Assembly (NCBI RefSeq): GCF_030408835.1
Contig: NZ_CP047357.1
Coordinates: 1,984,001-2,048,000, forward strand
Reading direction: 5' to 3'
Source: Corynebacterium freneyi
GTDB lineage: Bacteria; Actinomycetota; Actinomycetes; Mycobacteriales; Mycobacteriaceae
DNA: 64,000 nucleotides
Shown in pieces: positions 1,222 through 63,419 of the stretch. The notes under the pieces were generated by a model, which ran no database searches, was not told where the DNA came from, and saw only the letters and a list, made by a program, of their open reading frames with translations. A program made the translations under genes and the position numbers. Each line of letters opens with the position of its first letter. Within the stretch, counting starts at the first letter, position 1.

Positions 1222-2725
1222 CCTCCGCCTCCACGGGATTCGACGGATCGGCGGCGACCAGGCTGACCCGCTGGGCCGTGCCCTCGTCCGGCACGCCCGC
1301 GTCGGTCGTCCCCCGGCACTTGGCGAACACCGGCGGCTCGAACACGAACACCTCGACCTCCTCGCCACGGTCGTGGAGCACCGCGGAGTCGAAGGCATGG
1401 CCCACCCACGGTTCCAACACCACCGCCTCGGTCAGATCCAGGCACGCCCGGTCCACCCGCGACGCCAGCTGCCCCGACGACGCCATCACCGAAATCGCCT
1501 CGTCGACCCCGGCCGTCACCCACCCGGGGACCTCCACCTCCTGCGTGTCGCCGCGCCGGTGAGCCGCGATGGCCAGACAATACTCCAGCCCGAACCGGTC
1601 GATCAGCCGTCGCAACGGGGCCGTCACATGCGCGTACGGGCCACCCACGCCCGAATGCACCGGCACGTCGGACGGTGCGGGGGCCGAACCGTCGTCAAGC
1701 GTCTCCAACCGCTCGTACCCCGAGCCGCGCAACAGGCGCGACGCATCCTTCATCACCGCCATCCCGCGGGTCGAATCCGCGTCGACGCCCGCCAAAAACG
1801 CGCTGACCTCGGCAATGCCCGCATCATCGGGCAGCTCGTACCCCAACGCGCGCGCCGCCACCCGAAACTCCGCCAGCGCAGCCTCCCCCGCCGGCCGCAA
1901 CGTCCGCAACACCCCGACGCCGGCCTCCGCCATCATCTGACCGGCGACCATCCCCGCCAGCAGCGAGATCTCCGAATTGAAATCCATCACCGGCGGCCGC
2001 GCATCCAAGCGCAGCTCCCACCGGCCATCCCCCGTCGGCACCACCGACTGCGACGGCAACCGCAAATTGATCGCTTCACGACGACGCGCCGACCCCTGCC
2101 TGGCCCGCCCAACTTCCGGTAGCAGCGCAATCGACGGATGCGGGACCCCGGCATCGAACGACTCCTGCACCGCGACGTACTCCAGCCGCGCCACCGACCG
2201 CACCAGAGCCGGGAACACGTCGCGCAACGTCGGCTCCCCATCCGCGTCGACGACGATGTCCCAGACGATGGCCGGGCGGTCGACGTCGGGAAGCAAACTG
2301 CCCGCACCCTCCGACAGCGCCGCCGGATGCAGGCGCGTCGGCTCGTCCGGCAGATAAATCGTCTGCCCGCGGCGCATCGACTCGGCCGCCGTCAACGAAT
2401 CCGGCGCGATGAGCCCGCCGACGTCCGCGATCGCGTACAGCACGCGCCAACCGGCGGTGTCGGGGTCGCCAGCGCCCGCGTCGTCGGTGCCAGTGCCCGC
2501 GCCGGCGCCATCCCCGCCCCACGCGCTGATGTGCATCGCCTGATCCAGATCCATGGAGCCGGGCGGGTCGATGGTCACGAACGCGACGTCGCGCAAATCC
2601 TTCCGCGCCGCCCGCCGATCCACCGCAGCCGCGGCATCGGCGTGCACCTCCGGGGCGAACGTCTCCGGCACCCCGAACTCGCGGGCGACGGCACGGAAAT
2701 CGAGGGCGGCCGCAAACAGCTTCAT
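1196..2725 (-). CDS. RNB-domain exoribonuclease (RNase II/R family)
   Basis: The 509-residue product carries the RNB catalytic core. Residues 50-62 contain D-P-P-G-S-M-D-L-D-Q, matching the acidic metal-binding cluster D-x5-D-x-D-Q (D53, D59, D61) used by RNase II/R to hydrolyse single-stranded RNA 3' to 5'. A later block, AHVTAPLRRLIDRF, matches the conserved Y-x-H-F-T-S/A-P-I-R-R-Y region. The N-terminal cold-shock domains of full-length RNase R are missing and no S1 domain is evident, so this is the short actinobacterial form. A Gly/Ala/Asp-rich insert lies at residues 70-92. It is transcribed divergently from the trpB-like gene, with only about 80 bp between the two starts. It probably acts in the cytosol on RNA turnover. 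The product class is secure; the exact substrate is not. Confidence 0.85.
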   Translation of the reverse strand: MKLFAAALDFRAVAREFGVPETFAPEVHADAAAAVDRRAARKDLRDVAFVTIDPPGSMDLDQAMHISAWGGDGAGAGTGTDDAGAGDPDTAGWRVLYAIADVGGLIAPDSLTAAESMRRGQTIYLPDEPTRLHPAALSEGAGSLLPDVDRPAIVWDIVVDADGEPTLRDVFPALVRSVARLEYVAVQESFDAGVPHPSIALLPEVGRARQGSARRREAINLRLPSQSVVPTGDGRWELRLDARPPVMDFNSEISLLAGMVAGQMMAEAGVGVLRTLRPAGEAALAEFRVAARALGYELPDDAGIAEVSAFLAGVDADSTRGMAVMKDASRLLRGSGYERLETLDDGSAPAPSDVPVHSGVGGPYAHVTAPLRRLIDRFGLEYCLAIAAHRRGDTQEVEVPGWVTAGVDEAISVMASSGQLASRVDRACLDLTEAVVLEPWVGHAFDSAVLHDRGEEVEVFVFEPPVFAKCRGTTDAGVPDEGTAQRVSLVAADPSNPVEAEVLFAWPAD

Positions 2726-2805
2726 GTCCGCCCAGCCTAATGGCGATCACGGTCCGCGTCGCCGGATACGCTGAGGTGAACCATCCGCACTACACAGGAG
2801 CACAC

Positions 2806-4230
2806 ATGACCACCCAGGCCCGGCCCGGCACCGACGCCAACGGCGCGAACGGCGCGAACGGCGAGATGACCAAGGCGATTCTCCCCGACTCGGCGCTGCC
2901 GACCCACTGGTACAACCTCGCCGCCGACTTCCCCGAGCCGCTGCCGCCGCACCTCCACCCCGGCACCCGTGAGCCGCTGAAGCCGGAGGAGATGGAGCCG
3001 ATCTTCGCGTCCGGGCTGGTCGAGCAGGAGTTCTCCACCGACCGGTGGATCGAGATCCCCGAGCCGATCCGCGAAATCTACCGCCTGTGGCGTCCGTCGC
3101 CGCTGGGCCGGGCGCGCCGTCTGGAGAAGGAGCTGGGCACCTCCGCCCGCATCTACTACAAGAACGAGTCCGTCTCCCCCATCGGTTCGCACAAGCCGAA
3201 CACGTCGGTGGCGCAGGCGTACTACAACATGCTCGACGGCATCGAGAACCTGACCACCGAGACCGGCGCCGGCCAGTGGGGTGCGTCGCTGGCGTTCGCC
3301 GCCCAGTTCTTCGGCTTGGGCGTCGAGGTGTGGCAGGTGCGTGCGTCGTACGATTCGAAGCCCTACCGCCGCATGCTGATGGAGGTCTACGGCGGTTCGG
3401 TGCACCCGTCGCCGTCGGATCTGACCGAGGCGGGGCGCGCGATGCTGGCGAAGGATCCCGATACCCCGGGTTCGTTGGGCATGGCCGTGTCGGAGGCGAT
3501 CGAGGTCGCGGTCAACGGCAAGAATTCGCGGTACGCCCTGGGCAGCGTGCTCAATCACGTGATGTTGCACCAGACGATCATCGGTCAGGAGGCCGCCGCG
3601 CAGCTGGCCATGTTCGGCGAGACCGGCCCGGATGTCGTGGTCGGTTGCGCCGGCGGCGGGTCGAACCTGGCCGGTTTGACGTTCCCGTTCATCGGGCATT
3701 CGTTGACGGGTTCCGTGCTTGACGACGGCGGCCGTTCCTCCACTTCGACCTCCGCGTCGGGGGCGAAGGGGGATGCGAAGAAGTTCGTGGGAGATGACGC
3801 GCCGCGCATCATCGCCGCAGAGCCCGCCAAGTGCCCGTCGTTGACGAAGGGCGAGTACCGCTACGACCATGGTGATGTGGCGGGGTTGACGCCGCTGCTG
3901 AAGATGCACACCCTGGGCAGCGATTTCGTGCCGGATCCGATTCACGCCGGTGGTCTGCGGTACCACGCGATGGCGCCGATGGTGTCGCACGCCGTGGAGT
4001 TGGGTTTGATGGAGACCACCACGGTGGAGCAGGAGGACGCGTTCGCCGCCGGCGTGCGTTTCGCCCGCTGCGAGGGCACGGTTCCGGCGCCGGAGTCGAA
4101 CCACGCCATCGCCGCCGCATGTGCCGAGGCCGCGAAGTACGAGGGTGAGCCGGGTTCGGGTCCGGCCATTTTGATCGGTCTGTCGGGCAACGGTTTCCTC
4201 GACCTGCCGGCGTACTCGAAGTTCGTTTAG
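2806..4230 (+). CDS. TrpB2-type tryptophan synthase beta-like PLP enzyme
   Basis: ATG 2806 is preceded by an AGGAG ribosome site at 2796-2800, giving 474 residues; the open frame further upstream has no such site. The product matches the TrpB2 subfamily: WRPSPLGRARRLEKELG, then the PLP-lysine region SPIGSHKPNTS with Lys130, and a glycine-rich phosphate loop VGCAGGGSNLAGL. TrpB enzymes make L-tryptophan from serine and indole. TrpB2 proteins are often stand-alone and thought to salvage indole, and no trpA or other trp gene is adjacent here. An insert rich in Ser/Thr/Gly (about residues 305-325) precedes the conserved AEPAKCPSLTKGEYRYD block. A strong hairpin downstream (4381-4418) probably ends the transcript. 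The family is secure; the role as indole-salvaging enzyme is inferred. Confidence 0.88.
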   Translation: MTTQARPGTDANGANGANGEMTKAILPDSALPTHWYNLAADFPEPLPPHLHPGTREPLKPEEMEPIFASGLVEQEFSTDRWIEIPEPIREIYRLWRPSPLGRARRLEKELGTSARIYYKNESVSPIGSHKPNTSVAQAYYNMLDGIENLTTETGAGQWGASLAFAAQFFGLGVEVWQVRASYDSKPYRRMLMEVYGGSVHPSPSDLTEAGRAMLAKDPDTPGSLGMAVSEAIEVAVNGKNSRYALGSVLNHVMLHQTIIGQEAAAQLAMFGETGPDVVVGCAGGGSNLAGLTFPFIGHSLTGSVLDDGGRSSTSTSASGAKGDAKKFVGDDAPRIIAAEPAKCPSLTKGEYRYDHGDVAGLTPLLKMHTLGSDFVPDPIHAGGLRYHAMAPMVSHAVELGLMETTTVEQEDAFAAGVRFARCEGTVPAPESNHAIAAACAEAAKYEGEPGSGPAILIGLSGNGFLDLPAYSKFV

Positions 4231-4380: not shown

Positions 4381-4418
4381 GGCCGGGTCGTCGTAAAGCC
4401 AGACACGACGGCCCGGCC
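4381..4418 (+). terminator. Hairpin terminator after the trpB-like gene
   Basis: Arms 4381-4394 and 4405-4418 (14 bp each, one G-T pair) enclose a 10-base loop. The stem is very GC-rich and is followed only by a short TTCC, so it is a rho-independent-like hairpin without a clear T-run, as is common in high-GC actinobacteria. The left arm and loop contain CGTCGTAAAGC, a copy of the recurrent 11-mer described in the findings. Confidence 0.6.
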
Positions 4419-4776: not shown

Positions 4777-5799
4777 TCATGCGGCACCCGCCCGACGCTG
4801 CCCCGGCGTGCGATAACCCTTCGGCCAACGAGCCCCGGCCCGGACGAAACGCGCCGTCGTCGCATCACCCGCCGCGACCTTCGCCCTCTGCGCCTCCAAA
4901 AACTCACGCACCCGGCGCAGCGCCTCCCCCGACATGATCTGCTCCCACGTCACGCGCAACACGGCCAGCCCCTCGTCGAGAAGCTCCGACTCACGCTTCC
5001 ACTCGTAGAACGAACGCTCATCGGAATCGCCGTACACCCCGAGAAACTTCCCCTTGCCGTGCACCTCGATCATCGCCAACAAACCCCGATAGGCCAGATC
5101 CACGCACCCGATGAACAGCCCGTCAGCGCTGAACACCCGCAACTGCAGCTCCGGCGCCGGCAACCCCGCCTTGATGATCTGGGCGCGCATCAACGACTCC
5201 GCGGCACTGTCGGCGAAACGACTCGCGCACGCGACGACGTCGAGCGCCATCCGCGGATTCGCCGAACGCCCCGCCGCCCGGGCCAAATCAATCTGCGAAT
5301 GCCCCAGCCGCAACGCCGAATCCGCCGTGACCAAACCATGAGCGAACCCGTGCCGCAAAGTCACGTCGGCGACGGTCGCGCCCACCGACGTCACCAACCG
5401 CCCCTCGACGCGCCGCAGGTCCTCCGGGCCCCACGTCAGCTTCCGTTCGTGGATCGCGCCCCGCGTCTGGTAGTTCCTGCGCGTGGGATGCGCGAGTTCG
5501 ATGACGTCGATGCCGGCCGCGGGGTTTTTCGGGTTCGACCGTCCACCATCGCGGTTCGGCGACCGATCGAAGATGTCGAGCCCCCACGCCAGCGCGGCAC
5601 TGCGCCCGACGACGACCATCCCCTCCCTGGAGTCGACGGCGCTGAGATGGGTCACCCGCCGGCGGGCTGTGGTGTCGAGGTCGTGCCACTCGGCGGTCGG
5701 AATGTAGGTGTTCGGGTGCAGTCTGTGCAGCTCGCCGCCCCGCCATTTGCGGGCGAGCGCTTTACGTTCGGATTCCGTGTTCCCCCTGAGAATGTTCAC
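4777..5799 (-). CDS. AbiEi-like / DUF559-type protein (putative restriction-like nuclease fold)
   Basis: The frame is open up to 6051, but the first 84 codons run through tandem repeats. I place the start at GTG 5799 (VNILRGNTESERKALARKW), giving 340 residues. The N-terminal part resembles the winged-helix domain of AbiEi family antitoxin-like proteins, common in corynebacteria. The C-terminal part (about 225-320) reads SAAESLMRAQIIKAGLP, then GCVDLAYRG, then AMIEVHGKGKF. This is the D ... E-x-H-G-K layout of DUF559/VSR-like PD-(D/E)xK nucleases. The gene is isolated and flanked on both sides by matching inverted-repeat elements, which suggests it may have moved as a unit. No AbiEii-type toxin partner is next to it, so antitoxin function is doubtful. 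Family assignment is moderate; biochemical activity is unknown. Confidence 0.6.
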   Translation of the reverse strand: MNILRGNTESERKALARKWRGGELHRLHPNTYIPTAEWHDLDTTARRRVTHLSAVDSREGMVVVGRSAALAWGLDIFDRSPNRDGGRSNPKNPAAGIDVIELAHPTRRNYQTRGAIHERKLTWGPEDLRRVEGRLVTSVGATVADVTLRHGFAHGLVTADSALRLGHSQIDLARAAGRSANPRMALDVVACASRFADSAAESLMRAQIIKAGLPAPELQLRVFSADGLFIGCVDLAYRGLLAMIEVHGKGKFLGVYGDSDERSFYEWKRESELLDEGLAVLRVTWEQIMSGEALRRVREFLEAQRAKVAAGDATTARFVRAGARWPKGYRTPGQRRAGAA

Positions 5800-6793: not shown

Positions 6794-6919
6794 GCGCACG
6801 CGGGCGGGTGTCTGGTGCGGGGTCTGCTTTACGACGCCCCTCTCCCCGCCGTCGCCCATTTTCCCCGGGTGCATCGGGCATCGGTCGCCCCGGGTACACC
6901 GGTCAGCTCCGGCCGCCGC

Positions 6920-7720
6920 TTACCTCAGGTGGGCGGTGTCGTTGACCAGCGTGACCGAGGTGGGCCCGTCGGCGTAGAACTCGGCGACGGACAGCGACGC
7001 GAGGTCGAGGTGCAGTCGGGTGAACAGTTCGAACCCGGCGCCGAGGCCCTGGCGGAGGATGGATTTGATGGGCGTGACGTGGCTGACCACCAGGAACGTG
7101 CCGGGGCCGAAGTCGTCGGCGATGCGGCGGCGGGCGGCGGCGACGCGGTCGTCGACGGTGCGGAAGGCCTCGCCGCCGGGTGGGGTCAGTTCGGGGTCGG
7201 TGAGCCAGCGGGCGTGGATGTCGGCGTCGCGGGCGGCGGCTTCGCCGAAGGTCAGGCCTTCCCAGGTGCCGAAGTCGGTCTCGCGCAGGTCGTCGTCGAC
7301 GCTGATGCCGAGGCCGAGTTCCACCGCCGCGTATGTCGCGGTTTCCAGGGCGCGGGCCTGCGGGGATGCAATGATGCCGCGGATGTCCCAGTCGCCGGCC
7401 ACCAGCCGGTCGGCGGCGGCGCGTGCTTGGCGGCGGCCGAAGTCCGTCAGGGAGGGGTTCGACGCCGAGCCGCTGTATCGGCGGTCGACGCTCATCGGGG
7501 TTTGGCCGTGGCGCAGCAGCAGCAGTCGCGTGGGTTCGCCGACCGCGCCGGTCCATCCCGGGCTTGCCGACGTCGCCTCCCGGGTGGATCCGCGCTCCGG
7601 TTTCACGGAGCTTGCCGACGTCGCCTCCCTGGTCGATCCACGTTCCGGCTTCTCGGGGGCGCTCATCGCCTGTTCACCGCTCCCAGCTTGCTCACCGCTC
7701 ACCGCTCGCTCACCGCTCAT
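6920..7720 (-). CDS. Histidine phosphatase (phosphoglycerate mutase-like, CobC/acid phosphatase type)
   Basis: The start ATG at 7720 overlaps the stop of the upstream zinc-ribbon gene (ATGA), giving 266 residues. LLLLRHGQTPMSVDRRYSG carries the R-H-G catalytic motif of the histidine phosphatase superfamily, and VVSHVTPIKS supplies the second conserved His. In M. tuberculosis Rv2228c the matching position encodes a fusion of RNase HI with this phosphatase domain. Here the RNase H half is absent, replaced by a 58-residue Ser/Glu/Gly-rich leader that contains a 48-bp DNA repeat (7562-7655). It probably dephosphorylates a small phosphorylated substrate in the cytosol; alpha-ribazole phosphate is the guess suggested by the nearby cobC and cobD genes. 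The fold is secure; the substrate is unknown. Confidence 0.82.
   Translation of the reverse strand: MSGERAVSGEQAGSGEQAMSAPEKPERGSTREATSASSVKPERGSTREATSASPGWTGAVGEPTRLLLLRHGQTPMSVDRRYSGSASNPSLTDFGRRQARAAADRLVAGDWDIRGIIASPQARALETATYAAVELGLGISVDDDLRETDFGTWEGLTFGEAAARDADIHARWLTDPELTPPGGEAFRTVDDRVAAARRRIADDFGPGTFLVVSHVTPIKSILRQGLGAGFELFTRLHLDLASLSVAEFYADGPTSVTLVNDTAHLR
7562..7655. repeat. 48-bp in-frame direct repeat in the phosphatase N-terminus
   Basis: Two copies start at 7562 and 7610 (GCTTGCCGACGTCGCCTCCC, then GGT-GATCC-CG-TCCGG). They encode the repeated peptide K-P-E-R-G-S-T-R-E-A-T-S-A-S in the low-complexity leader. The period is a multiple of three, so copy-number change would keep the frame. 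Confidence 0.75.
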
Positions 7721-9736: not shown

Positions 9737-10846
9737 TCATCGTTCACGTTGCAGGGCGGCGATGCGGGTGACCTCCCCCACCAGTGTGCCGACGTCGGCC
9801 GGACCACGCACCGCCAACCGCCACCGCGACGTCCCCAACCCCGGGAACGTGTCGCAGCGGCGCACCGCCACTCCCCGATTCGCCAGGGCCAGCCGCACCG
9901 CCTCCGGGTCGGCCACCGGTGGCCTGGCCAGCAGAAACGGCCCCGCGGCCGGCTCGACCTCCCAGCCGGCGTCGTCAAGCACCGCCACCATCAATTCCCG
10001 CTCCCGCGCAACGTCGGCGCGCTCGAGCTGCAACGGCCGGCCCATCCCATGCTCGGCCACCAACCGCATCGCATGCAGCTGCAACGTGCCCACCGGCCAC
10101 GCCGGACGACGCCGCGCCAACGCCGCCAGCACCTCCGGCGCACCCAATGCATACCCGCAGCGCAACCCCGCCAACGCCCACGTCTTGGTCAAACTGCGGA
10201 ACACCAGCAACCCGGGATCGCGCACCGACGCGACCTCGCAAGCCTCCCCGGCATCCTCGGCGACGACGTCCATGAACGCCTCGTCGACCACCACGACCCG
10301 GCCCGGCGCGCGCAGGGCCAAAATGTCCTCGCGCGAATGGAGCACCGACGTCGGATTCGTCGGATTGCCCACCACCACCAGATCGGCGTCGTCGGGCACC
10401 GCAACCGAACCATCGCGCACCTGCCCCAGATCCCACGGGGGGCGCAGAATCACCCGGTCGACGTCGATGCCCGCCGCCCGCATCACCGCATCCGGCTCCG
10501 TGAACTGCGGATGGATCACCGCCGGACGCTCGCAGATGTCCGGCAACAGCGCGAACCCCTCGGCCACGCCCGCCAGCAACAGGACCTCATCCTCCCGCCG
10601 CCCGTGCCGCCGCGCGATGAGCTTGCGCACCCGCCGATCCAGCATCGGATCCGGGTAGGCGGACAAATCGTTGAGGTGGCTGCCGAGGGCGTCGAGAAGC
10701 CACCGCGGCGTCGCCCCACGCACGTTGACCGCGAAATCCACCAGCGCCCCCCGCGCCGCCACATCGCCGTGGTAACTCACGTCGCCGGTGAACTCGGCCC
10801 CGACGGAGACCGCCGCAGCGTCATCCCCCGTGTTGCCCATCATCAT
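9737..10846 (-). CDS. cobC: CobC/threonine-phosphate decarboxylase-like PLP aminotransferase
   Basis: This is a fold-type I aminotransferase of about 369 residues. Conserved features are VGNPTNPTS (N-P substrate loop), VVVDEAFMDV (Asp contacting the PLP nitrogen) and FRSLTKTWALAGLRCGYALG with the Schiff-base Lys. Homologues in the same position (Rv2231c) are called CobC and act in the lower part of the cobalamin pathway, or as histidinol-phosphate aminotransferase-like enzymes. A cobD-like gene lies 4 kb away. The start is uncertain: three adjacent ATG codons (10840, 10843, 10846) and a GTG at 10855 compete without a clear ribosome site. It diverges from ptkA. Confidence 0.8.
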   Translation of the reverse strand: MMMGNTGDDAAAVSVGAEFTGDVSYHGDVAARGALVDFAVNVRGATPRWLLDALGSHLNDLSAYPDPMLDRRVRKLIARRHGRREDEVLLLAGVAEGFALLPDICERPAVIHPQFTEPDAVMRAAGIDVDRVILRPPWDLGQVRDGSVAVPDDADLVVVGNPTNPTSVLHSREDILALRAPGRVVVVDEAFMDVVAEDAGEACEVASVRDPGLLVFRSLTKTWALAGLRCGYALGAPEVLAALARRRPAWPVGTLQLHAMRLVAEHGMGRPLQLERADVARERELMVAVLDDAGWEVEPAAGPFLLARPPVADPEAVRLALANRGVAVRRCDTFPGLGTSRWRLAVRGPADVGTLVGEVTRIAALQRER

Positions 10847-10910: not shown

Positions 10911-11642
10911 ATGGCCCCCACCTTGCTCATCGACGTCGACGGCACCATCAGCGATTCCCTCGCGGGCATCCAGGCGAGCTTCCGCACCGCGATGGAGGCG
11001 GTCGACCACCCGATCCCCGACAACACGTTCATGTCCACCCTCGCCGGCCCGCCGATGCGGGATTCGATGGCGAAGATCGGACTGTCCGGCGACCGCCTCG
11101 ACGCCGCGATGCGCGCCTACCGTGCCGCGCAAACCGACGGCGGGTGGGCGGACACCAGGATGTTCCCGGGCTGGGTCGAGCTTCTCGACGGCTGGCGCGC
11201 CGACGGCATCCGCCTGGCGACGGCCACCTCGAAGGGAGGGCACTTCGCCCGGAAGGTGCTGGCGGAGTTCGGGATCCTCGGCCGTTTCGACTTCATCGGC
11301 GCCGCCGACGACGGCGGGGACCGCCACCACAAGGACGACGTCATCGAACACACCCTGCGCGTGCTGGGGCTGCCCGCCGTGCGCCGCGACATCGACGGCG
11401 ATGGCGGGGACTCCGGGGATGACGGCAATGGTGGCAATGGCGGCAATGGCGGGAACGCCCTGCCCGGCGTCGTGATGATCGGCGACCGCATCCACGACGT
11501 CGAGGGCGCCCGACGCTTCGGCGTGCCGGCGATCCTCGTCGGCTGGGGCTACGGACCCGACGACGAACGCGACCGCGCCGACGCCGTCGCGCACACGCCC
11601 GACCAGCTAGACCGCATGGCCCGGGAGATGCTCGGGCTCTGA
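10911..11642 (+). CDS. ptkA: HAD-family hydrolase, PtkA-like
   Basis: The 243-residue product has the HAD motifs: LLIDVDGTISDS (Asp nucleophile and acid), TATSKGG (motif II), a Lys in HHKDDV, and MIGDRIHDVEGA (motif IV). Its place before a low-molecular-weight tyrosine phosphatase matches M. tuberculosis ptkA-ptpA (Rv2232-Rv2234), where PtkA is reported to phosphorylate PtpA. Here I would only claim a phosphoglycolate-phosphatase-like HAD protein with conserved synteny. A Gly/Asp/Asn-rich insert, including G-N-G-G-N-G-G-N-G-G, lies at about residues 164-182, just before motif IV. Confidence 0.78.
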   Translation: MAPTLLIDVDGTISDSLAGIQASFRTAMEAVDHPIPDNTFMSTLAGPPMRDSMAKIGLSGDRLDAAMRAYRAAQTDGGWADTRMFPGWVELLDGWRADGIRLATATSKGGHFARKVLAEFGILGRFDFIGAADDGGDRHHKDDVIEHTLRVLGLPAVRRDIDGDGGDSGDDGNGGNGGNGGNALPGVVMIGDRIHDVEGARRFGVPAILVGWGYGPDDERDRADAVAHTPDQLDRMAREMLGL

Positions 11643-12403: not shown

Positions 12404-12506
12404 CCGCTGACCGCAGGCTCGCACCGCCACGCCCCCACCGGGTGCCGCTGACCGAGCGTCGACCGGCGTCCACGGTGAACGGCCGGGGCGGTGGCCGTCG
12501 TGAAGC

Positions 12507-13324: not shown

Positions 13325-14407
13325 GTGACATCCCGAATCCGCCAGTTCCTGACCCCCGGCTGGGTGCTCACCGCCGTGGTCTGCGTCGCGTTCGCCTATC
13401 TCGCGTTCACGGTGCTCGCTCCGTGGCAGCTCGGGAAGAACAAGGCCACGCAGGAGCGCAACGACCAGCTGCGCCACGCCTTCGAGGTCGATCCCGTGGA
13501 CGCCTCGGAGCTGTTCCCCGCCGACGGGGAGCTGGCGGAGGGCACGGAGTGGCGGCGGGTCACCGCGCAGGGCGAGTTCCTGCCGGATTCGGAGGTCCTG
13601 CTGCGCAATCGGCCGGTCGACGGCACGCCGGCGACGCACGCACTGACCGCCTTCCGCGCCGATGACGGAACGATTTACCTGGTCAACCGCGGTTTCGAAA
13701 CCCCGCCGGATGGCGGCGTCCCGGACATGGAGGCCGCACCGTCGGGTGAGGTGACCATTCTGGGCTACGCCCGCCGCGGCGAAATGACCCCGGAGCGCCC
13801 GCCCCTGGAGGGCGGCGAGGGCGAGCCGACGCAGGTCTACGGCATCGACACCGACCAGGTCGGCGAGATCATGGACGTGGATTTGCACCCCGATTACATC
13901 CAGCTCGCCGAGGATCAACCGGGCAGCCTGCGCGCCATTCCGCTGCCGACGCTGGAAAGCGGCCCGTACCTGGCGTACGGCATCCAGTGGATTTTCTTCG
14001 GCATCATGGCCCCGGGCGCCCTGATCTGGTTCATCTTCGCGGAGGCCCGGGAACGTCGCCGGGACCGGGAGGAGCAGGAGGCCGTCCTGCGTTCCTCGCG
14101 TGACGACGAGCCTGCCGCCGCATCCCCCGCCGCGGAGTCGGCGACGGCCCCGTCCGCCACGGCGGGTGGCGATGACGTGGACGTCGTCAAGCCAGAAACG
14201 CACGAGGCACGCGATGCGCGTGCGGACCGCGACGGCGGTGAGACCGACGCCGGGCGCGAGAAGAAGGCAGAGCCCGCTGCGGCGGCCGCCACGGCGGAAG
14301 CCGACGCGCAGGCTGAACGTGCGCGCCGACTGGCTGCGCGCTACGGCGACTCCGGGCACAAGGGACGGCGCCGCAAGGGCCACGGGCTCGACGACGAACG
14401 GTTCTAG
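13325..14407 (+). CDS. SURF1-family cytochrome oxidase assembly protein
   Basis: GTG 13325 follows a TAAGGTGGG site, giving 360 residues. TM1 covers residues 13-32 and is followed by the SURF1 mark WQLGKN. A periplasmic loop carries RVTAQGEFLPDSEVLLRNRP, a conserved SURF1 block. TM2 covers about 218-239. SURF1 helps insert heme a3 into the aa3 oxidase. Beyond TM2 there is a tail of some 120 residues, rich in Ala, Asp, Glu and Arg, that typical SURF1 proteins lack. It ends in a basic RRKGHGLDDERF. Position next to cobD and ptpA matches Rv2235. Confidence 0.87.
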   Translation: MTSRIRQFLTPGWVLTAVVCVAFAYLAFTVLAPWQLGKNKATQERNDQLRHAFEVDPVDASELFPADGELAEGTEWRRVTAQGEFLPDSEVLLRNRPVDGTPATHALTAFRADDGTIYLVNRGFETPPDGGVPDMEAAPSGEVTILGYARRGEMTPERPPLEGGEGEPTQVYGIDTDQVGEIMDVDLHPDYIQLAEDQPGSLRAIPLPTLESGPYLAYGIQWIFFGIMAPGALIWFIFAEARERRRDREEQEAVLRSSRDDEPAAASPAAESATAPSATAGGDDVDVVKPETHEARDARADRDGGETDAGREKKAEPAAAAATAEADAQAERARRLAARYGDSGHKGRRRKGHGLDDERF

Positions 14408-16168: not shown

Positions 16169-16541
16169 TTCTCCGATCCTCCAAAATCTCGTGAGTGCCG
16201 CGGGTCCCGTCATAGACCCGCGTTGCTTTCTCCGGGGAGTTTACCGCCCCGGGGGGCCTTGTACAGGGATCGGGGTCCGGGAGCTTGACGACGACCCCGC
16301 CGAATCGCCCCCGCCCACACCGCGGATCAGCGCCGCAGTCACGCCCGACCATGAGGTGTAACGCCGTTTCCGGCCCACCGGACCGGTGGCGACGAGGTGG
16401 GCGTCGTCACGCACGAAGACGGCGGAAATCGACCCAAACGCGAATCCGGAAACGGAAGTAGAGTGTTGAGGAAAACGACTCGGGCACCGACCGCCCCATC
16501 ATCACGGGGGCCGATCGCCCCAACGATCCGGGAGGAACCAC
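16169..16541. other. Divergent promoter region between DUF3052 and aceE
   Basis: No gene is visible. It contains one copy of the recurrent 11-mer (GCTTGACGACG, 16283-16293) and a TAGAGT hexamer at 16459-16464 that could be an aceE -10 box. GGGAGGAACC before ATG 16542 is a good ribosome site. I see no recognisable regulator site. Confidence 0.4.
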
Positions 16542-46107: not shown

Positions 46108-47454
46108 CTACCCCCACGCCGCCGAAACGCCCGCGATCTGCCGATCCAACTGCTCCACCCGCGACTCCGTCATCGACGCGATCTGATCCACGATGACCCG
46201 CAACCGTCCCGCATCCGACTCCGCCTGGGCGTACATCCTGCGGTACATCGGATCCAACGCCCCGGGCGCCCCTTCCTTGAAATACTCCGCTACACGGAAC
46301 AACCGATCCCGCTCCCGATCCTGCCGGCGAATATGCCGCGGCAAATCCATCACGTACAACACCGCAATGGTCTTCAACATCGTCACCTCCGCGAGGATCC
46401 CCGCCGGCACCGCCAAATCCGCCTCATAACGCCCCAAGGCCCGATCAATCGGCTGCTTCGGCCCGAAAATCCCCTCCGCCTCACTCGACGACGCCCACGC
46501 CTCGCGCGCCGCCCTCCGCGTACCCGCAACCGACGCCGTGACGAACCGGCCCACCAACTCCGACGTCATCCGCTTCAACGCCACCATCGACTCCAGAGAA
46601 CCGTCATACGACGCCGCCACCGACACCACCGGCAAACTCGCCAACCGGCCGGCCGCCTCGACCAGCTCCGCAGGATCCCCGCCGAACGCCCGCGCCCCCT
46701 TGTCCGCCAACGCCGCCAACTCCACCGTGTCCCACAACACCCCCAAATCAATGCGCCCCGACACGATCCCGTCCTCGACGTCATGCACCGAATACGCCAC
46801 GTCATCGGCCCAATCCATGATCTGCGCCTCAAGACACTGCCGCCCATGCGGCGCCCCCGCCCGAATCCACTGCAAAATCGGAGCATCCTCCTGATAGGCG
46901 CCGTACTTCGCCCGCTTCGTCCCATCCGGGGCAATCGGCGTCCACGGATACTTGCACGCCGCATCCAACGCCGCCCGCGTCAGGTTCAAGCCGCACGGGT
47001 GCCCCGTGTCATCCAAGGTCTTCGGCTCCAGACGCGCCAAAATGCGCAACGTCTGGGCATTCCCCTCGAAACCACCGCACCCTGCGGCGATCTCATCCAA
47101 CGCCCGCTCCCCGTTATGCCCGTACGGCGGATGACCGATGTCATGGGTCAACCCCGCCAACTCCGCCAAATCCTCATCCGCGCCCAACTCCGCCGCAATC
47201 CCCCGCGCAATCTGCGCCACCTCCAACGAATGCGTCAAACGAGTACGCGGCGTATCCCCCTCATGCGGCCCCACGACCTGAGTCTTATCCGCCAACCGTC
47301 GCAAAGCAGCCGAATGCAGCACACGCGCACGATCACGGGCAAACGCCGTACGATGCGCCTCCACCACCTCCGCCCCCGGCAGCAGCGACTGCTTCGCCCC
47401 CTCACGCAGGATGCGGTCGAAATCGGAAGGTGAATAACGGAATCGAGCGGCCAC
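46108..47454 (-). CDS. dgt: Deoxyguanosine triphosphate triphosphohydrolase-like protein
   Basis: I start at GTG 47454 ([15 protein letters not shown]); the frame is open a little further upstream and no strong ribosome site settles the choice. The 448-residue product has HD-domain residues in [18 protein letters not shown] and [21 protein letters not shown], then the long dGTPase tail with [16 protein letters not shown]. The enzyme splits dNTPs into nucleoside and tripolyphosphate. Its position beside dnaG is conserved in Actinobacteria (Rv2344c-Rv2343c). Confidence 0.93.
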
Positions 47455-49700: not shown

Positions 49701-50213
49701 CTACCCCATCAAACGCGCGGCGCCATCCACATGCGCACACGCAAACGCCGCAGCCGCCAAAAGCCCCGCATCAACCCCCGCCGCATCGGGATCACCCCCG
49801 ACGATCTCGACGACGACCTCCCCACCATCCACGCGCGTCCTCGCCACCAGACGCCGAGCGCCGACATCCACCACATCACGGCCCCGCCCACCGTCACGCC
49901 GCCTCAAACTCAACTCCCCGCCCGGCCCCGACACCACCACATGCGCCACCGTCAAACCCACCGTCCGCGCACGCCACCAATCCCCCGGCGACGACACCGT
50001 AAACGTCCGCCCCGACAACCCCGACGGCGTCACCCGCCAACCGGCCGCAATGACAACCCCATCAGCGTCGTAAAGCACACCCCCCTGCCCCGAACCAACC
50101 CCCGACCGGCCCGCCGGCACCACCCCCGACACACGCCACGGCCCGGGCGCGCCACCGGGAACGGGCCCCACACCCTCCCCCGGCACACGCCCGGGCCGAT
50201 CACCGCCAACCAT
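49701..50213 (-). CDS. Conserved-looking protein of unknown function
   Basis: The 170-residue frame starts six bases after the stop of the upstream gene, so the two look co-transcribed. The segment from about residue 45 (GGVLYDADGVVIAAGWRVTPSGLSGRTFTVSSPGDWW) through LVARTRVDGGEVVVEIVGGDPDAAGVDAGLLAAAAFACAH alternates short beta-strands and turns. It looks protein-like rather than like a frame shadow. I recognise no family. The first 40 residues are Gly/Pro-rich and the true start could be further in. Confidence 0.6.
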   Translation of the reverse strand: MVGGDRPGRVPGEGVGPVPGGAPGPWRVSGVVPAGRSGVGSGQGGVLYDADGVVIAAGWRVTPSGLSGRTFTVSSPGDWWRARTVGLTVAHVVVSGPGGELSLRRRDGGRGRDVVDVGARRLVARTRVDGGEVVVEIVGGDPDAAGVDAGLLAAAAFACAHVDGAARLMG

Positions 50214-51005: not shown

Positions 51006-51047
51006 GCGTTGTCTCCTAGCTGACGGCGGGAATCGTCGAAAAGCGAA

Positions 51048-52433: not shown

Positions 52434-52697
52434 TGCCTCAAACGCTCCTTGGTTCACGGTGTCCCGCCCCGCGGTGGATCCGGCGGGCACGGGATGACGG
52501 TGGGCGGCTTCATCGGCCGCCCCGTGCAATCGACTGTCCGGGTGGACGGTCGACAAGTGTCCCCCACTCTAACCGGCATGGTGAGTTTCATGCCCATCGA
52601 CCCCGGGATTTCGCCGAGGGTAGTGTCGGGATGCGAAGCAAGCTTTGCGACGACACCTCCCCGGTCCACCGCGAAGGTGCGGTTTGGGGCGGTGATC

Positions 52698-53281: not shown

Positions 53282-55159
53282 CTAGTTGGACCAGCTCCAC
53301 CATCCGGTCGACGTCGACTGCGCTTCTCTCCTGTCGGCTTGGTAGGTCGCCCACCAGGATTCGGACCAGCCGGGGGATCTGCGTGCCGCCGGCGAGTCGT
53401 TGAACTCGGGGGCCCGGCCCGGTTTCACGTGCCCGACTCGTCCGGTTTCCCGGGGGTGGGTGGCCCGCCCACTGGCATGGCCAGCATCCGCGTCGTCGTT
53501 TTCGCGGTGGTGTTCCGGGCAGCGGAGTGTGCAGTTGCCGATGTCGGTGGCCCCTCCGAATAGCCAGGCGTCGATGTGGTGCGTTTCGCACATGTCGGCG
53601 GGCTGTTCGCATCCGGGGTAGGTGCACACGGTCTCCGACGCCAGCAGCAGGACTCGCTGCCACAGGTCGGCGGTTCGCCGTGATCGGCCCAGGTCGAGTG
53701 GGCGTCCCGTGATGTCGTCGAGCAACGCCAACCACGCGTACTTGTGAGCCCCGAGGGTCACCAGTTCGGGCAGCGTCAGGTCGATGCCGGTGTTCGTCGG
53801 GAAGCGTTTGAACACCCGCCGCTCCCCTTCCGGCGGCCCTTCCCGTTGGGCGCTCTGAAGTTCGTCGTCGAAGTCCGAGGCCCTGATCGCCATCACGATC
53901 GACGCCACGCCGGCATTCGGGCGGTCGAGCGGTTGCGCGACTCCCGAGTACAGGTCGGCGACGAAGGGGCATCGTTCCGGGTCCCAGTAGGTTGATTCGG
54001 TGCGCAACCATCGCAGCAATCCCCGGCCATGGTCCTCCCCTGCGCCCTCCCCTGCGCCGTCGTCCGCCTCCGGCGCGTCGCTTCCGGCCCCGCTCCGGAC
54101 TCCACCTGCGGTTCCCGCTCTGCGGCTCACCTTCCCGGCGCCTCCGCCTCCGCCGCCCGACTCTCCGGCGGTCGCGGTTCCGCTCCGGACCCCGCCTGGC
54201 GCACCGAGATCAACACCATCCCCGGCATCCACCCCGACTCCCGCCGCAGCTCCGGCTCCGCTGTGCTGCAGCGCGAACAGCAGCACGTGGTGGAGGGCGT
54301 GCACGCGTCGTTGGGTCAGGGTTCGGGGATCTTTGACGCCGTCGGGCAGGTCGAGGAAGGCGCCGGGCCCGGCGTTGAGGTGCAGCAGCGCGTTAAGCAC
54401 TGCGGCGGTCGGCGCCGGCAGCATCGCGTCGAGTTTGCACAGTCCGTCGACGTTGGGCGCCCGGACGGTCAGCCTGGCCTGCGAGGTGCCGGCTTTGGTC
54501 GCCGATTTCCGTTTTTCCAGGCGTTTGCGGGCTTCGTTGGCGCACATCGACCGGAAGAGGTCGGCGGGCGTGGAGTCGATGTTGTCGGTGATGGCTTCGG
54601 CGACGTCCTCCATGAGTCCGTGCTCTTGTCCGGTGAAGCTGCCGAGCACTTCGTTCATTTGGTTGGATCGGCACACTGGGAAGTTGCCTTTTTTGGCGGA
54701 GGCTGCGAGTCGTTCGCCGATGGCGCGACGCCGGTGGAGTTGTTTTTCGGCGGCCTCCAGTTCTTCGGGGGTGGCGTCGGCGGGCGGGTCGGGGTCGGGT
54801 TCGGGGTGGAGTGCGTCGCGGTATGCGAGCAGGTGGCGTGCTTCGGTGTCGGTGATGTCGAACAGCCTCTTGAGGTATGACCGTGGCGTGGCGCGTCCGC
54901 CGCCGCGTTTGTGCAGTTCGTTGACGACGACGGCGTTGGCGTATTCGGCGAAGACGACGTCGGCGGCGCGCATGGCGTGGCGCAGCCTGACGACGCCGGC
55001 TTCGACGTGGTTGATCTCGTCGCCGTGGTGTCCGTCGCCGCCCACTGCCCCGATGGGCAGGGTGGTCAGTTGCCGGATCATGCCCTCTATGTTTCGCGTC
55101 AGCTTTGCGACGAGTCCCGCCAGGTCGTCGCCCGCCCCGTTGTCGTGTGCCGTCGACAT
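53282..55159 (-). CDS. DUF222 / HNH endonuclease (13E12-repeat family)
   Basis: ATG 55159 gives 625 residues. The N-terminal and central part is the DUF222 region (NIEGMIRQLTTLPIGAVGGDGHHGDEINHVEAGVVRLRHAMRAADVVFAEYANAV ... AREL-type helices). A Gly/Ala/Asp-rich linker lies at about 310-395, and a C-terminal HNH domain contains CTYPGCEQPADMCETHHIDAW, GGATDIGNCTLRCPEHHREND. 13E12-type genes occur in multiple copies in actinobacterial genomes and are often linked to mobile DNA. No flanking repeats or attachment site are evident. Biological role unknown. Confidence 0.85.
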   Translation of the reverse strand: MSTAHDNGAGDDLAGLVAKLTRNIEGMIRQLTTLPIGAVGGDGHHGDEINHVEAGVVRLRHAMRAADVVFAEYANAVVVNELHKRGGGRATPRSYLKRLFDITDTEARHLLAYRDALHPEPDPDPPADATPEELEAAEKQLHRRRAIGERLAASAKKGNFPVCRSNQMNEVLGSFTGQEHGLMEDVAEAITDNIDSTPADLFRSMCANEARKRLEKRKSATKAGTSQARLTVRAPNVDGLCKLDAMLPAPTAAVLNALLHLNAGPGAFLDLPDGVKDPRTLTQRRVHALHHVLLFALQHSGAGAAAGVGVDAGDGVDLGAPGGVRSGTATAGESGGGGGGAGKVSRRAGTAGGVRSGAGSDAPEADDGAGEGAGEDHGRGLLRWLRTESTYWDPERCPFVADLYSGVAQPLDRPNAGVASIVMAIRASDFDDELQSAQREGPPEGERRVFKRFPTNTGIDLTLPELVTLGAHKYAWLALLDDITGRPLDLGRSRRTADLWQRVLLLASETVCTYPGCEQPADMCETHHIDAWLFGGATDIGNCTLRCPEHHRENDDADAGHASGRATHPRETGRVGHVKPGRAPEFNDSPAARRSPGWSESWWATYQADRREAQSTSTGWWSWSN

Positions 55160-55390
55160 CGCCCCACCCCGAGTGATTGTTCGCTTTCCTGTTCGCACCC
55201 CGGACGCTATCAGCAGATCAAGATCGGCCGCGACGCATATTTGTTCGAATCCGCCATTCGGGCGGGCCGCCACCGGCGAAAGCGTCGTCGCAAAGCCGAA
55301 AGTGACCGATTCCGCGAATTTTTCCCAGGACCAGCCCCGCTCGCCTCCCCCGTCGTTGTACTCCGGTGGTTCCCGCCTATTTGCCGCCGC

Positions 55391-56143: not shown

Positions 56144-56244
56144 GTTTTCATCATGCCCCACGGGGTGCGGCGGGCCCCAGTCCCGGTGGGCCTCAGTTCC
56201 GGCGGGCACCAGTTCCGCTGGGCTCGGTTCCGGTGGGCGTGGCT

Positions 56245-57204
56245 TTACGACGGTGTGCCGCGTCCCGGTGCGCCGGGGTGGGTTCGGGCGGTCGGCGTGG
56301 TCGAGGTGCGGGGGCTGCCGTCTTCTCCCCAGCGGGCGTCGACGAAGGACAGTGCCGCGACGCGTCGGCCGAGGTGGTGGTGGAGGTGAGCCGTCGCCAA
56401 GCCTCGGGCTTGTGAGGCGAGGGGGCGGAATCCTCGGCGGTCGGAGACGGCGTCGATGTAGTCCCAGCGGTCGTGGGCGAGCCACCACATCAGGCGGAGG
56501 ACGTCGGTGGGTGGGGTGGCGGCGCCGGGTGGGCGGCATTCGACGCATACTGCGCCGCCGGCGGCTGGGGCGAATGCCTTGTGGGGGCCGGGTTTTCCGC
56601 ATTGGGCGCAGTCGAAGAGGCTGGGGGCCCAGCCGGCTTCGCCCATGGCTTTGAGCAGGTATGCGGTGAGCAGGAGTCCGGGGGTGCGGCGGGGTGCGCC
56701 GCCATTGTGCCCGCCCAGCGTGCTGCTACGGTGGACGCCGTTTTCGGGGCCGCGTTCATCGGCGTTGGCGGCGTCGGCGTCGGTGACGGCGGTCGCGGCG
56801 ACATCGGCGGCGGTCGCGGAGTGTGCGAGGGCGTCGAGTGCGTCGACGGTGAGGTCCCACAGGCCCGGCGAGGGGGCGCCTTCTTCGCCGGCGAGGCGTT
56901 CGGCGGTTTCGAGGACTCCGCAGGCGCAGGTGTAGCGGGCGTAGTCGTCGACGATGGGTGCGGCCCACGTTCGGATCGTGTCGGCGCCGGTGATGGTGCC
57001 GAGGTTGCGGCCGGGGTGGATCTGCACGTCGGTTTCGACGAACGGCGCCAGCCTGGATCCGAAGCGGGATTTGGCGCGACGCACGCCTTTCGCCACGGCG
57101 CGGACGATGCCGTGGTTCCGGGTGAACAGGACGATGATCCGGTCGGCTTCCCCCAGGTCGTGACGCTTTACGACGATCGCCCGGTCGCGATAGCTCTCCG
57201 CCAT
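56245..57204 (-). CDS. recO: DNA repair protein RecO
   Basis: The 319-residue product starts [52 protein letters not shown], the conserved N-terminal OB-fold. The C-terminal half has a zinc site with [10 protein letters not shown] and CVECRPPG. RecO loads RecA on SSB-coated DNA with RecR. A Thr/Pro-rich tail follows the core ([18 protein letters not shown]). The stop is about 100 bp upstream of the uppS start codon, with the recurrent 11-mer (56242-56252) across the stop. Confidence 0.94.
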
Positions 57205-58847: not shown

Positions 58848-58848
58848 G

Positions 58849-60192
58849 TCAGTTCTCCTCTTGTTCGTGTCCCGCGGCGGCGTCCGCCGGTTCCGGGTCG
58901 ACGGGTTCGACCACGACGGCGTGGACCCGCATGCGGCCGCGGCGGTCGCGTGCGCCTTCGGCGGTGAAGCGCAGTCCGGCGGCCTCCACTTCGGCGCCCG
59001 GCAGCGGGACGCGTCCGAGACCGTAGGCGAGCAACCCGGATACCGTGTCGACTTCGTCGTCGACACCGTCGTCGAATCGGACTTCACGTCCCTCGGCTTC
59101 GTCGTAAAGCTCCACGAGTTCGCCGAGGGACAACCTGGCCATGACCCGGTACCGGCCGTCGCCGAGGGGTTCGATGGGCGCCCGTTCGTCTTCATCGTAT
59201 TCGTCCGCGATCTCGCCGACGATTTCCTCGAGGATGTCCTCGATGGAGATCAGCCCCGCCACGCCGCCGTACTCGTCGACGAGGATGGCGATGTGGTTGC
59301 GGTCGCGTTGCATTTCGTCGAGCAGGTCGTCGAGGGGTTTGGAGTCCGGCACGAACGTGGCGGCGCGCATGACGTCGGTGACGGGGACGCTGCGGCCACC
59401 GTCGGTGAGCGAGTAGGTCTGCTGCACCAGGTCCTTCAGGTAGACGATGCCGACGATGTCGTCGGCGCCGTCGCCGATGACCGGGATGCGCGAGTGGCCC
59501 GACCGGACGCACAGGGCGACGGCCTGGCCGGCGTGCTTCTCCGATTCGATCCACACCATTTCCGGGCGCGGCACCATCACCGACCGTGCGGACGTCGACG
59601 CCAGGTCGAAGACGGATTGGATCATGCGGCGTTCGTCGTGTTCGACGATGCCGCGTTCGCGGGCGATGTCGACCATTTCGCGCAGTTCGACTTCGCCGGA
59701 AAATGGGCCGTCGCGGAAGCCGCCGCCGGGGGTGAGCACGTTGCCCACCCAGATCAGGAGCTTTTCGACGGGGCCGAGCAGGCGGGAGACGGCGCCGAGG
59801 ATGACGGCGGAGGCGAGCGACACCGCGTAGGGGTTGCGGCGTCCGAGGGTGCGCGAGGTGACGCCGAGGACCAGGTAGCTGAACAGCGTCATGGCCACGA
59901 TCGCCGCGGTGATCGCCCAGGCGTCGGACCGGATGTATTCCATCGCGAGGACGGCGACGAGGACGGAGCCGGAGACTTCGCACACCGTGCGCAGCAGCAC
60001 GAGGACGTTGACGTTGCGGGCACGGTAGTCCAGGACGCGGACCAGTGCTTTCGCACCGGCGACTTCGTCGCGGACCATTTCATTGGCGCGCGCCCGGGAG
60101 ATGGACGATACGGCGGTTTCGACGGTGTTGAGTACGCCGGCGATGGCCATGAGGAGGATGACCGCGAGGATCATCCATGCCGATGCGGTCAT
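58849..60192 (-). CDS. CorC/HlyC-type CBS-domain membrane protein
   Basis: The 447-residue product has an N-terminal DUF21 membrane domain with four helices ([26 protein letters not shown]). A CBS pair follows ([18 protein letters not shown] ... [52 protein letters not shown]), then the C-terminal CorC/HlyC domain. Family members are implicated in Mg2+ efflux; the old hemolysin label is historical. ATG 60192 overlaps the ybeY stop. The tail is a Glu/Asp/Pro-rich stretch. Confidence 0.9.
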
Positions 60193-62178: not shown

Positions 62179-62291
62179 GCCGGGTGGAACCTCGTTTCCT
62201 TGGCGGGTTGGTGGTGCGGGTCGGTGAGGCGGTTGGTGGTCGGCGCGCCGGGGGCGGGGCGTCGACGGGTTTGTCACGATCTTAGGTCGTC

Positions 62292-63419
62292 TCACTGGTC
62301 GGGCGTGCACCGGCGCATGAGTTGCGGCAGGGATGGGGCCGCGACGGCGACGGCGATGACGCGGACGACGTGCATGACCACGACGATGCCCGCGCCGCCG
62401 CGTTCGGCGACGAACCCGAATACGAGCTCGCTGGCGCCGGGTGCGGTGGCCAGGTAGGAGTCGACGCCGCCGGTGATGCCGAACATCCACATCGCCCAGG
62501 CGGACAGTGCGGTGGTGGCCAGCAGCATGCCGACGCCGGCGAGGACGTACGGCAGAGCGCGGCGGAATTCGGCGATGTTGGCCATGGTCATGCCGGAGCC
62601 GGCGGCGGTGCCCAGGACGATGAATGCGACGGCGACGGCCAGCCGCGGCATGTCGGGGGCCAGTTCGGGCCAGATCATGGCGCCCGCGGCCCCGGCGAGG
62701 ATGGCGGGGATGATGAAGGGTGCCGGGAACTTCGGCATGAGCTTTGCGACGGCGGCTCCCAACGCCATTGCGGCGGCGATCATCGCCCAGCTCGACCAGT
62801 CGCCCGCCCATTCCGAAATCCGGGACGCCGAGTCCATGGCGGTTGGGTCGGCTGCGCCGCCGATGGGGGCGACGGCGTCGTCGGGGCGGGCGTCACCCGG
62901 TCCGTCGAGAAGCAGAATCACGGCCGGCAGGCTCAACGAAACGACGAGCAGGCGCAGGTACTGGGAGAAGACGACGAATTTCTCGTCTGCGCCGGCTTCG
63001 CGGGCCACCGCCAGCATGAGGGATGCGCCACCCGGCAGCGTGGCCACCACCGATGTGGCGCGATCGACGCCCGCGCGGCGGTGCAGCAGGGACGATGCGG
63101 CGAAGGCGACGAGCATCGACGCGACCGTGACCAGCAGGGCCAGGGGAAGACCCGCGGCGAGCTCGCCGGGGCTGGATTGTGCGACGGGACCGACGGCGAG
63201 CAGCGCGATGACCGTCTGCCCGAAGCGGTTCGGCCAGGGCCTGGTCCACTTCACGTTCGGGGCGGCGCGGCCGCCGGCGACCAGCGACAGCACCACGGCG
63301 ACGACCATCGGGCCGACCAGCCATCCCGCCGGCACGCCCGCCCACGACGCCACCGCGCCGCCGAGGGCGCACAGCAGCCAGGGAACGAGGAATGCGCGGG
63401 CGGATTTCACGTCGACCAC
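62292..63419 (-). CDS. AbrB-family membrane protein (putative ammonia monooxygenase-like transporter)
   Basis: GTG 63419 gives 375 residues with about ten helices in two repeats (LVPWLLCALGGAVASWAGVPAGWLVGPMVVAVVLSLVAGG ... SSWAMIAAAMALGAAVAKLMPKFPAPFIIPAILAGAAGAMIW). VVATLPGGASLMLAVAREAGAD and SYLATAPGASELVFGF are the conserved repeated P-G-A-S/E motifs of the AbrB (Gate/AmoB-like) family. The substrate is unknown. The start is 12 bp downstream of the rsmE stop. Confidence 0.85.
   Translation of the reverse strand: MVDVKSARAFLVPWLLCALGGAVASWAGVPAGWLVGPMVVAVVLSLVAGGRAAPNVKWTRPWPNRFGQTVIALLAVGPVAQSSPGELAAGLPLALLVTVASMLVAFAASSLLHRRAGVDRATSVVATLPGGASLMLAVAREAGADEKFVVFSQYLRLLVVSLSLPAVILLLDGPGDARPDDAVAPIGGAADPTAMDSASRISEWAGDWSSWAMIAAAMALGAAVAKLMPKFPAPFIIPAILAGAAGAMIWPELAPDMPRLAVAVAFIVLGTAAGSGMTMANIAEFRRALPYVLAGVGMLLATTALSAWAMWMFGITGGVDSYLATAPGASELVFGFVAERGGAGIVVVMHVVRVIAVAVAAPSLPQLMRRCTPDQ

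Follow-up and report, generated by a model that had tools for sequence, protein, structure and literature searches.

In a stretch of 64,000 nt of the 2.88-Mb Corynebacterium freneyi chromosome (the window; the genome is called G000 or the own genome below), the gapped word GCTT-NN-CGACG occurs 49 times (22 on the + strand and 27 on the - strand). Extended by a C at the second base past this core (GCTTNNCGACG, dialect D1), the full word is GCTT-NN-CGACG-n-C (GCTTNNCGACGnC). It is probably a DNA uptake sequence, that is, a self tag, of Corynebacterium, a function which we infer from the way the word is distributed and the way it changes. Its copy number, strand balance, density, even spacing, inverted pairs and scarcity in mobile DNA match an uptake sequence better than other known classes of repeated word. 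Above all, so does the presence of a second dialect, D2 (GCTTNNCGATG, D1 with the tenth core base C replaced by T), which differs from D1 site by site between related species.

The word and its copy number

An earlier note on the window, made from the letters alone, had reported 12, 10 and 8 copies of three forms of an over-represented 11-mer, GCTTKRCGACG, in balanced orientation. We obtained the same counts. Over both strands there are 12 GCTTGACGACG, 10 GCTTTGCGACG and 8 GCTTTACGACG, together 14 on the + strand and 16 on the - strand, and 2 GCTTGGCGACG bring GCTTKRCGACG to 32. Dinucleotide shuffles of the window gave a mean of 0.39 and a maximum of 3. The whole chromosome contains 957 copies as compared to 40 of the reversed pattern, which served as the control for whole-genome counts. 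The 11-mer is therefore an enriched word, but it was incompletely defined. In a 464-kb sample of the own genome (the window and 20 further stretches of 20 kb each), 311 copies had a spacer of two bases between GCTT and CGACG, while spacers of 0, 1 and 3-7 bases were found 5 to 41 times each. The middle dinucleotide is free; 14 of the 16 kinds are present, with GA, TG and TA the commonest. Because the two middle bases are free and the spacer is fixed, the window holds 49 sites and not 30. In the whole chromosome GCTT-NN-CGACG was found 1,720 times (861 + and 859 -, about 600 per Mb) versus 119 for the control. This count, which the earlier note had proposed as a check, is far from expectation, and the balance of the two orientations holds for the entire chromosome.

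The flanks had been described as unconserved. The part of this claim that stands is that the word does not belong to a larger repeat; such an origin was rejected because the flanks are hardly conserved past +12, where conservation in the own-genome sample is nearly gone. They are not blank, however. In the own genome the second base past the core was C at 66% of the 542 sites compared; in five other genome samples the share was 75-95%, with the highest value, 95%, in G004. The base directly 5' of the core was rarely G (3-12% in the five other samples and 18% in the own genome).

Two dialects in the genus

D1 and D2 were counted in each of 201 Corynebacterium genomes. D1 is carried by 140 of them (280-1,964 copies), and the other 61 have at most 134 copies. 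D2 is carried by 12 genomes (213-1,337 copies), 11 of which are among the 61 without D1, and 50 genomes have neither dialect. G159 is the single genome with both (1,337 D2 and 352 D1); perhaps its dialects are in mid-switch or its reader is relaxed. All other D1-rich genomes contain at most 159 D2 copies. Judged from 22.7 kb each, C. pollutisoli (15 sites) and C. gallinarum (10 sites) also seem rich in D1. A de novo scan for spaced words (100-138 kb each) found no comparable word in G014, G055, G168 and G163, four of the 50 neither-type genomes. In the positive controls, the scan placed D1 at the top in G016 and D2 at the top in G160. Among 149 other genomes of the order (55 other genera), GCTTNNCGAYG did not exceed about 2.1 times the control, as compared to 13.5 times in the own genome.

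In a tree of 20 species based on a helicase, TopA and TadA, and midpoint-rooted for drawing only, five D2 species fell into one group with an SH-aLRT support of 100%. The group also holds G004 (D1) and G014 (neither), and only D1 and neither-type species lie outside it. In a ComEC tree of 30 species, G159 was the well supported sister of a group made up of G004, G005 and G109 (D1) and G006, G121 and G169 (D2).

Other words were met in two genomes of the survey. G055 (L240-L244, L141), a tag-free relative of the own species with 75.6% G+C, has a strong excess of TCGnCGA-type words. G009 (L128 or L029) carries an unrelated repeat, with GTTGTGCGCTAT present 8 times and GTTATGCGCTAT 6 times in 38 kb.

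The one-base switch at orthologous sites

Some D2 copies lie at positions orthologous to those of D1 in other genomes. We aligned 217 kb of G006 (D2) with 218 kb of G004 (D1), of which 137 kb aligned at 81.7% identity. G004 has 115 D1 sites in this DNA; 40 were unalignable and 75 could be followed in G006. At these 75 sites G006 had D2 at 47, D1 at 7, one other single change at 1 and two or more changes at 20. In the opposite direction, 83 of the 101 D2 sites of G006 could be followed in G004, where 47 were D1, 8 were D2 and 28 were other. Conservation at aligned sites in relatives, which the earlier note had asked about, was evident here: the eight core bases other than the tenth were intact at 54 of the 75 followed sites as compared to 23.5% of 18,709 random windows. 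At the tenth base the ratio of T to C was 47:7 at the followed sites and 95:136 at CGACG elsewhere (Fisher p 4e-10).

Within 80 kb of G159 sequence, all 8 shared sites at which G004 has D1 and G006 has D2 were D2; this combination of G004 and G006 was not met at any of the 7 D1 sites of G159 in the same DNA. The presence of D2 at 8 of 8 shared sites indicates that D2 is the older state there and that G004 returned to D1, which means that T to C changes took place as well. Deamination of methylated C was rejected as the sole source of D2 because it fails to explain this return in the G004 lineage. The switch by one base and the switch back were seen at dozens of orthologous sites and probably affected hundreds genome-wide.

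Placement on the chromosome

Gene borders are predictions from a purpose-made codon-model gene caller, and the intergenic fractions given here rest on them. The intergenic excess reported in the earlier note was found again, with 16 of the 49 window sites between genes, but intergenic DNA makes up 17% of the window and not about a tenth. In the 464-kb sample 85 of 311 sites are intergenic and 16% of the bases are. Inside genes one codon frame predominates, with 182 of 226 intragenic copies in this sample. When codons of the 372 predicted genes were reshuffled synonymously, a mean of 32 cores remained (maximum 42 in 100 runs) versus 223 observed. Codon-pair preference in one frame, the explanation that the earlier note had set against its own proposal, thus does not account for the copies. 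In intergenic gaps between co-directional genes, 20 sites have the same orientation as the genes and 19 the opposite one, which speaks against a signal at the RNA level.

Polarity along the replichores was absent. If the terminus is placed half a chromosome away from the start of the record, the two chromosome halves have 124 + and 113 - sites and 148 + and 158 - sites, respectively. The origin and terminus halves differ little in density (11.65 and 13.05 sites per 20 kb). Among 40 evenly placed 20-kb stretches, 38 contain 6-20 sites each, with a mean of 13.0. Without the two near-empty stretches the counts vary less than a Poisson distribution would (variance/mean 0.70; 1.31 with them). Both near-empty stretches lie in the origin half. 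One of them (L179, G000:652501-672500) has no site and represents a portion of a prophage, with genes for terminase, portal and head protease. The other (L190, G000:2247501-2267500) has one site and encodes three transposases of the ISL3 type as well as ABC transporters. The chromosome carries the tag and this prophage stretch and insertion sequence (IS) island are nearly without it, the scarcity in mobile DNA resting on these two regions.

Neighbouring sites not more than 150 bp apart were +/- pairs in 16 of 24 cases. Inverted pairs were spaced 13-50 bp, and several enclose GC-rich hairpins, of which L012:4128, L010:7458 and L018:12916 are intergenic. No poly-T tract was seen in the inverted pairs inspected. 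In G000, adjacent sites had opposite orientation 345 times versus 171 times the same orientation (p 1.5e-14). Within 1 kb, pairs of the same orientation numbered 74 versus 167 expected in G000, while opposite pairs numbered 181 versus 183 expected. The effect was weaker in G004 and G160 (p 0.04 each), where the corresponding values were 14 versus 29 and 33 versus 30, and 12 versus 24 and 24 versus 24, respectively. The avoidance of the same orientation was not seen in G016 (same 63 versus 55, opposite 44 versus 56; p 0.41) or in G006 (same 21 versus 22, opposite 29 versus 22; p 0.68). Pooling the other D1 loci had given a weaker form of the effect seen in the own genome, but its absence from G016 and G006 led us to drop it as a general rule. 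If it were general, it would suggest a site that acts in one direction.

Competence and pilus genes

ComEC was present in all 201 genomes, DprA in 38 of 38 and a match to the T2SSE/TadA-type ATPase in 60 of 60. The set TadA-TadB-TadC-Flp was found in 20 of 20 loci. Of 30 ComEC loci, 28 had a recognisable ComEA next to ComEC, the exceptions being G105 and G154. In the own genome, ComEA with SLBB and helix-hairpin-helix domains lies directly before ComEC. The Tad locus of the own genome is near topA, and Pfam confirms its TadA and a DUF4244 pilin; further genes of the locus we take, by position and the usual make-up of such loci, to encode CpaE-like, TadB, TadC, TadE-like and TadF-like proteins. 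Two properties of these genes may be recorded here. The ComEC open frame ranges from 325 to 879 aa across 30 species. In the own genome the frame for the DUF4244/Flp pilin (L125:10821-11219) has a long N-terminal extension that contains several cysteines, and G069 has a shorter extension, also with cysteine.

The Flp pilin, TadE, TadF, ComEA, the length or integrity of ComEC and the presence of TadA were considered as readers of the word, or as marks of one, and were set aside, as none was seen to track it in the loci compared. TadE was recovered in 13 of 20 loci and some TadF rows were in wrong frames, which makes the TadE and TadF comparison a partial one. A TadA match that starts late (from model position 86 on) was found in 13 of the 24 genomes without the word and in none of the 36 that have it, a contrast that is weak because the genomes are related.

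Sites in the window

Table 1. Copies of GCTT-NN-CGACG in the window, with strand, location and close pairing
Word	Position	Strand	Location	Pairing or remark
GCTTGACGACG	1690..1700	-	in gene	
GCTTCACGACG	2073..2083	+	in gene	
GCTTCCCGACG	2284..2294	-	in gene	
GCTTGACGACG	3717..3727	+	in gene	
GCTTTACGACG	4389..4399	-	intergenic	
GCTTCTCGACG	4974..4984	-	in predicted gene	
GCTTTACGACG	6826..6836	+	intergenic	
GCTTGCCGACG	7562..7572	+	intergenic	direct pair with 7610
GCTTGCCGACG	7610..7620	+	intergenic	direct pair with 7562
GCTTGACGACG	9970..9980	-	in gene	
GCTTCTCGACG	10690..10700	-	in gene	
GCTTCTCGACG	11180..11190	+	in gene	
GCTTCACGACG	12496..12506	-	intergenic	
GCTTGACGACG	14182..14192	-	in gene	
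GCTTGACGACG	16283..16293	+	intergenic	
GCTTGGCGACG	19339..19349	+	in predicted gene	
GCTTGACGACG	19821..19831	-	in gene	
GCTTTGCGACG	20537..20547	+	intergenic	
GCTTTGCGACG	22856..22866	+	in gene	inverted pair with 22973
GCTTGACGACG	22973..22983	-	in gene	inverted pair with 22856
GCTTGACGACG	25384..25394	-	in gene	
GCTTTTCGACG	28944..28954	-	in gene	
GCTTTGCGACG	29979..29989	-	intergenic	
GCTTGACGACG	31492..31502	+	in gene	
GCTTGACGACG	33485..33495	-	in gene	
GCTTCTCGACG	34526..34536	-	in gene	
GCTTTCCGACG	34724..34734	-	in gene	
GCTTGACGACG	35538..35548	+	intergenic	
GCTTTGCGACG	36723..36733	-	intergenic	
GCTTGCCGACG	38960..38970	+	in gene	
GCTTGACGACG	39347..39357	-	in gene	
GCTTCACGACG	41801..41811	+	in gene	
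GCTTTGCGACG	43036..43046	+	in gene	
GCTTTACGACG	44019..44029	-	in gene	
GCTTTACGACG	44752..44762	+	intergenic	
GCTTTGCGACG	47297..47307	-	intergenic by predicted genes	within longer frame 46108-47484
GCTTTACGACG	50066..50076	-	intergenic	
GCTTTTCGACG	51034..51044	-	intergenic	
GCTTTGCGACG	52642..52652	+	intergenic	
GCTTCCCGACG	53795..53805	-	in gene	
GCTTTGCGACG	55102..55112	+	in gene	
GCTTTGCGACG	55286..55296	-	intergenic	
GCTTTACGACG	56242..56252	+	at gene end	
GCTTGGCGACG	56392..56402	-	in gene	
GCTTTACGACG	57165..57175	+	in gene	
GCTTTACGACG	59100..59110	-	in gene	
GCTTTTCGACG	59760..59770	+	in gene	
GCTTTGCGACG	62741..62751	+	in gene	
GCTTCTCGACG	62903..62913	-	in gene	

Pfam gave no match for 7 of the 10 window frames examined; a pyruvate dehydrogenase E1 gene is present in the window by the same database. 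The closest named matches of this gene are from Corynebacterium, the first three at 81, 79 and 77% identity, in a search that may have excluded records of the genome itself. Two inverted pairs of another word, the 15-base TGTCCCGTTTTGTGC and its complement, lie at 4517-4585 and 6072-6139 of the window, 54 and 53 bp apart, with one copy mismatched. They bracket the predicted gene 4777-5799, and Pfam on window:4777-6051 returned no match. These pairs may be the ends of a mobile element.

Discussion

In the model that we favour, the word would be read by a putative DNA receptor of the competence apparatus, and DNA of the own species would be preferred in uptake and recombination. Through biased uptake and recombination, molecular drive would spread the word and maintain its density in own DNA, about one copy per 1.6 kb, and recent arrivals such as prophages would be without it. 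If the preference of the receptor at the tenth core base shifted between C and T, the sites would follow singly and dialects that separate species would arise. We infer all three elements of this model, namely a reader in the competence apparatus, a word that raises uptake, and drive rather than site-by-site selection as its upkeep. Corynebacteria are functionally two-membraned through their mycolic-acid outer membrane. A more detailed proposal, to which we lean slightly less than to its opposite, is that this is an independently evolved uptake code, with a gapped 10-base self tag, a Tad-pilus-linked receptor of polar action, and dialects that act as a genetic barrier between species.

As far as the account in PMC3630211 goes, the DNA uptake sequences of Neisseriaceae share with the Corynebacterium word a large number of copies, clade dialects, inverted pairs that can form stem-loops, and copies both inside and between genes; inverted pairs near terminators are described for them there. 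The Corynebacterium word differs in having another sequence with a free two-base spacer, in occurring in an actinobacterium with Tad-type pilus genes, and in that both its receptor and its role in uptake are putative. Uptake sequences of the Haemophilus type (Hin-USS) are given as 500-800 per Mb in the section of PMC12616744 that deals with them. The uptake signal sequences of Pasteurellaceae, with a predicted ComN/PpdA receptor in that source, are thus similar in density and likewise form two dialect groups within one taxon. Their sequence is unrelated to the Corynebacterium word. HIP1 of cyanobacteria, the function of which is debated, is also a highly iterated short word, but HIP1 is palindromic whereas the Corynebacterium word is not, and the latter has dialects. 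A 2013 paper, in its passage on the subject, calls the requirement for a short uptake sequence unique to Neisseria species and Pasteurellaceae (PMC3630211). No title or abstract opening on this word or on uptake sequences in Actinobacteria was found in our literature search, which left most subscription papers and bioRxiv uncovered.

The likeness to uptake sequences that the earlier note had drawn therefore extends to the dialects, the site-by-site switching, the hairpin pairs, the scarcity in mobile DNA and the even spacing, but a comparison of ComEA, Flp, TadE and TadF, in the loci where each was recovered, gave no reader protein. Several further observations count against an uptake sequence. 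The Com and Tad genes, for which the earlier note had suggested a search, are present, but equally so in genomes without either dialect, which makes them permissive and not diagnostic; all 4 loci from word-free genomes have TadE-like genes, and at least 2 of them have a TadF-like gene as well. No ComEA column has disjoint letters between D1 and D2 species in an alignment of 28 rows. ComEC is incomplete in G154 (a 325-aa open frame matching 2-188 of 270), yet this genome has 625 D2 sites, and it is split into two matches in G001, yet that genome has 1,618 D1 sites. The ComEC tree, which has long branches and is less reliable, does not place all 12 D2 species together; it requires 5 changes of dialect, and good branch support makes at least 2 of these unavoidable. 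C to T at CGACG is common anyway between G004 and G006 (95 of 246 outside the motif). Single changes in the nine fixed bases stay near background, so that copies with one mismatch barely exceed expectation (433 versus 354 in the 464-kb sample, the top excess being T to C at base 4). We know of no uptake sequence for which avoidance of the same orientation is a feature. Finally, a literature search found no report of natural transformation in Corynebacterium.

Other explanations of the word were weighed against the same data. A Chi-like signal, read in one orientation by a helicase-nuclease (e.g. AdnAB) that processes DNA ends and needing copies for each strand, is in our judgment unlikely. It shares with Chi hotspots many copies genome-wide, and the avoidance of the same orientation within 1 kb in G000, G004 and G160 suggests polar action, so that orientation-dependent action is possible in three of five genomes; this spacing effect is missing, however, in G016 and G006. 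The strand bias with replication that is typical of known Chi sites is missing from the word, which as a gapped word of 9-10 bases is also longer than the Chi sites known to us. RecC (PF04257) was found in 0 of 38 genomes, with the E. coli control matched, and no search for AdnAB was made. A Chi site of RecBCD and replication-polar motifs (Chi, KOPS) were rejected on the absence of RecC in all 38 genomes and the balanced strand counts of the chromosome halves. We likewise doubt that the word is bound by a protein that organises or segregates the chromosome, with selection acting on each site. Even spacing, a density that changes little along the chromosome, recognition that is strict over 9-10 bases and near absence from mobile DNA would all suit such a protein. 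There is, however, no strong trend between origin and terminus, with both near-empty stretches in the origin half, and a one-base switch at most alignable orthologues, its reversal and the absence of the word from 50 of 201 genomes are difficult to explain if an essential organiser needs each site.

The strict, gapped and asymmetric recognition is also what a target of DNA modification or of a restriction-modification system would show, but such an origin is very improbable. Targets of this kind are usually neutral or avoided, not enriched, and the change between D1 and D2 ran both ways at conserved places, for which deamination of methylated C alone is insufficient. It is hardly conceivable that the word is a by-product of codon pairs, base composition or a spreading repeat. 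The predominance of one codon frame among intragenic copies is in agreement with a by-product, but both the synonymous reshuffling and the dinucleotide shuffles fall far short of the observed copies, and the intergenic excess, the use of both orientations, the spacer fixed at 2 and the near lack of conservation in the outer flanks do not fit it.

If the word is an uptake sequence, self-tagging of DNA arose again outside the Gram-negative groups of Neisseria and Pasteurellaceae. Natural transformation would then be implied across much of the genus, and DNA that carries the tag might make strains transformable. The reversal from D2 to D1 is a before-and-after record of how one letter changes in a recognition code with about a thousand sites, and it makes molecular drive versus site-by-site selection testable.

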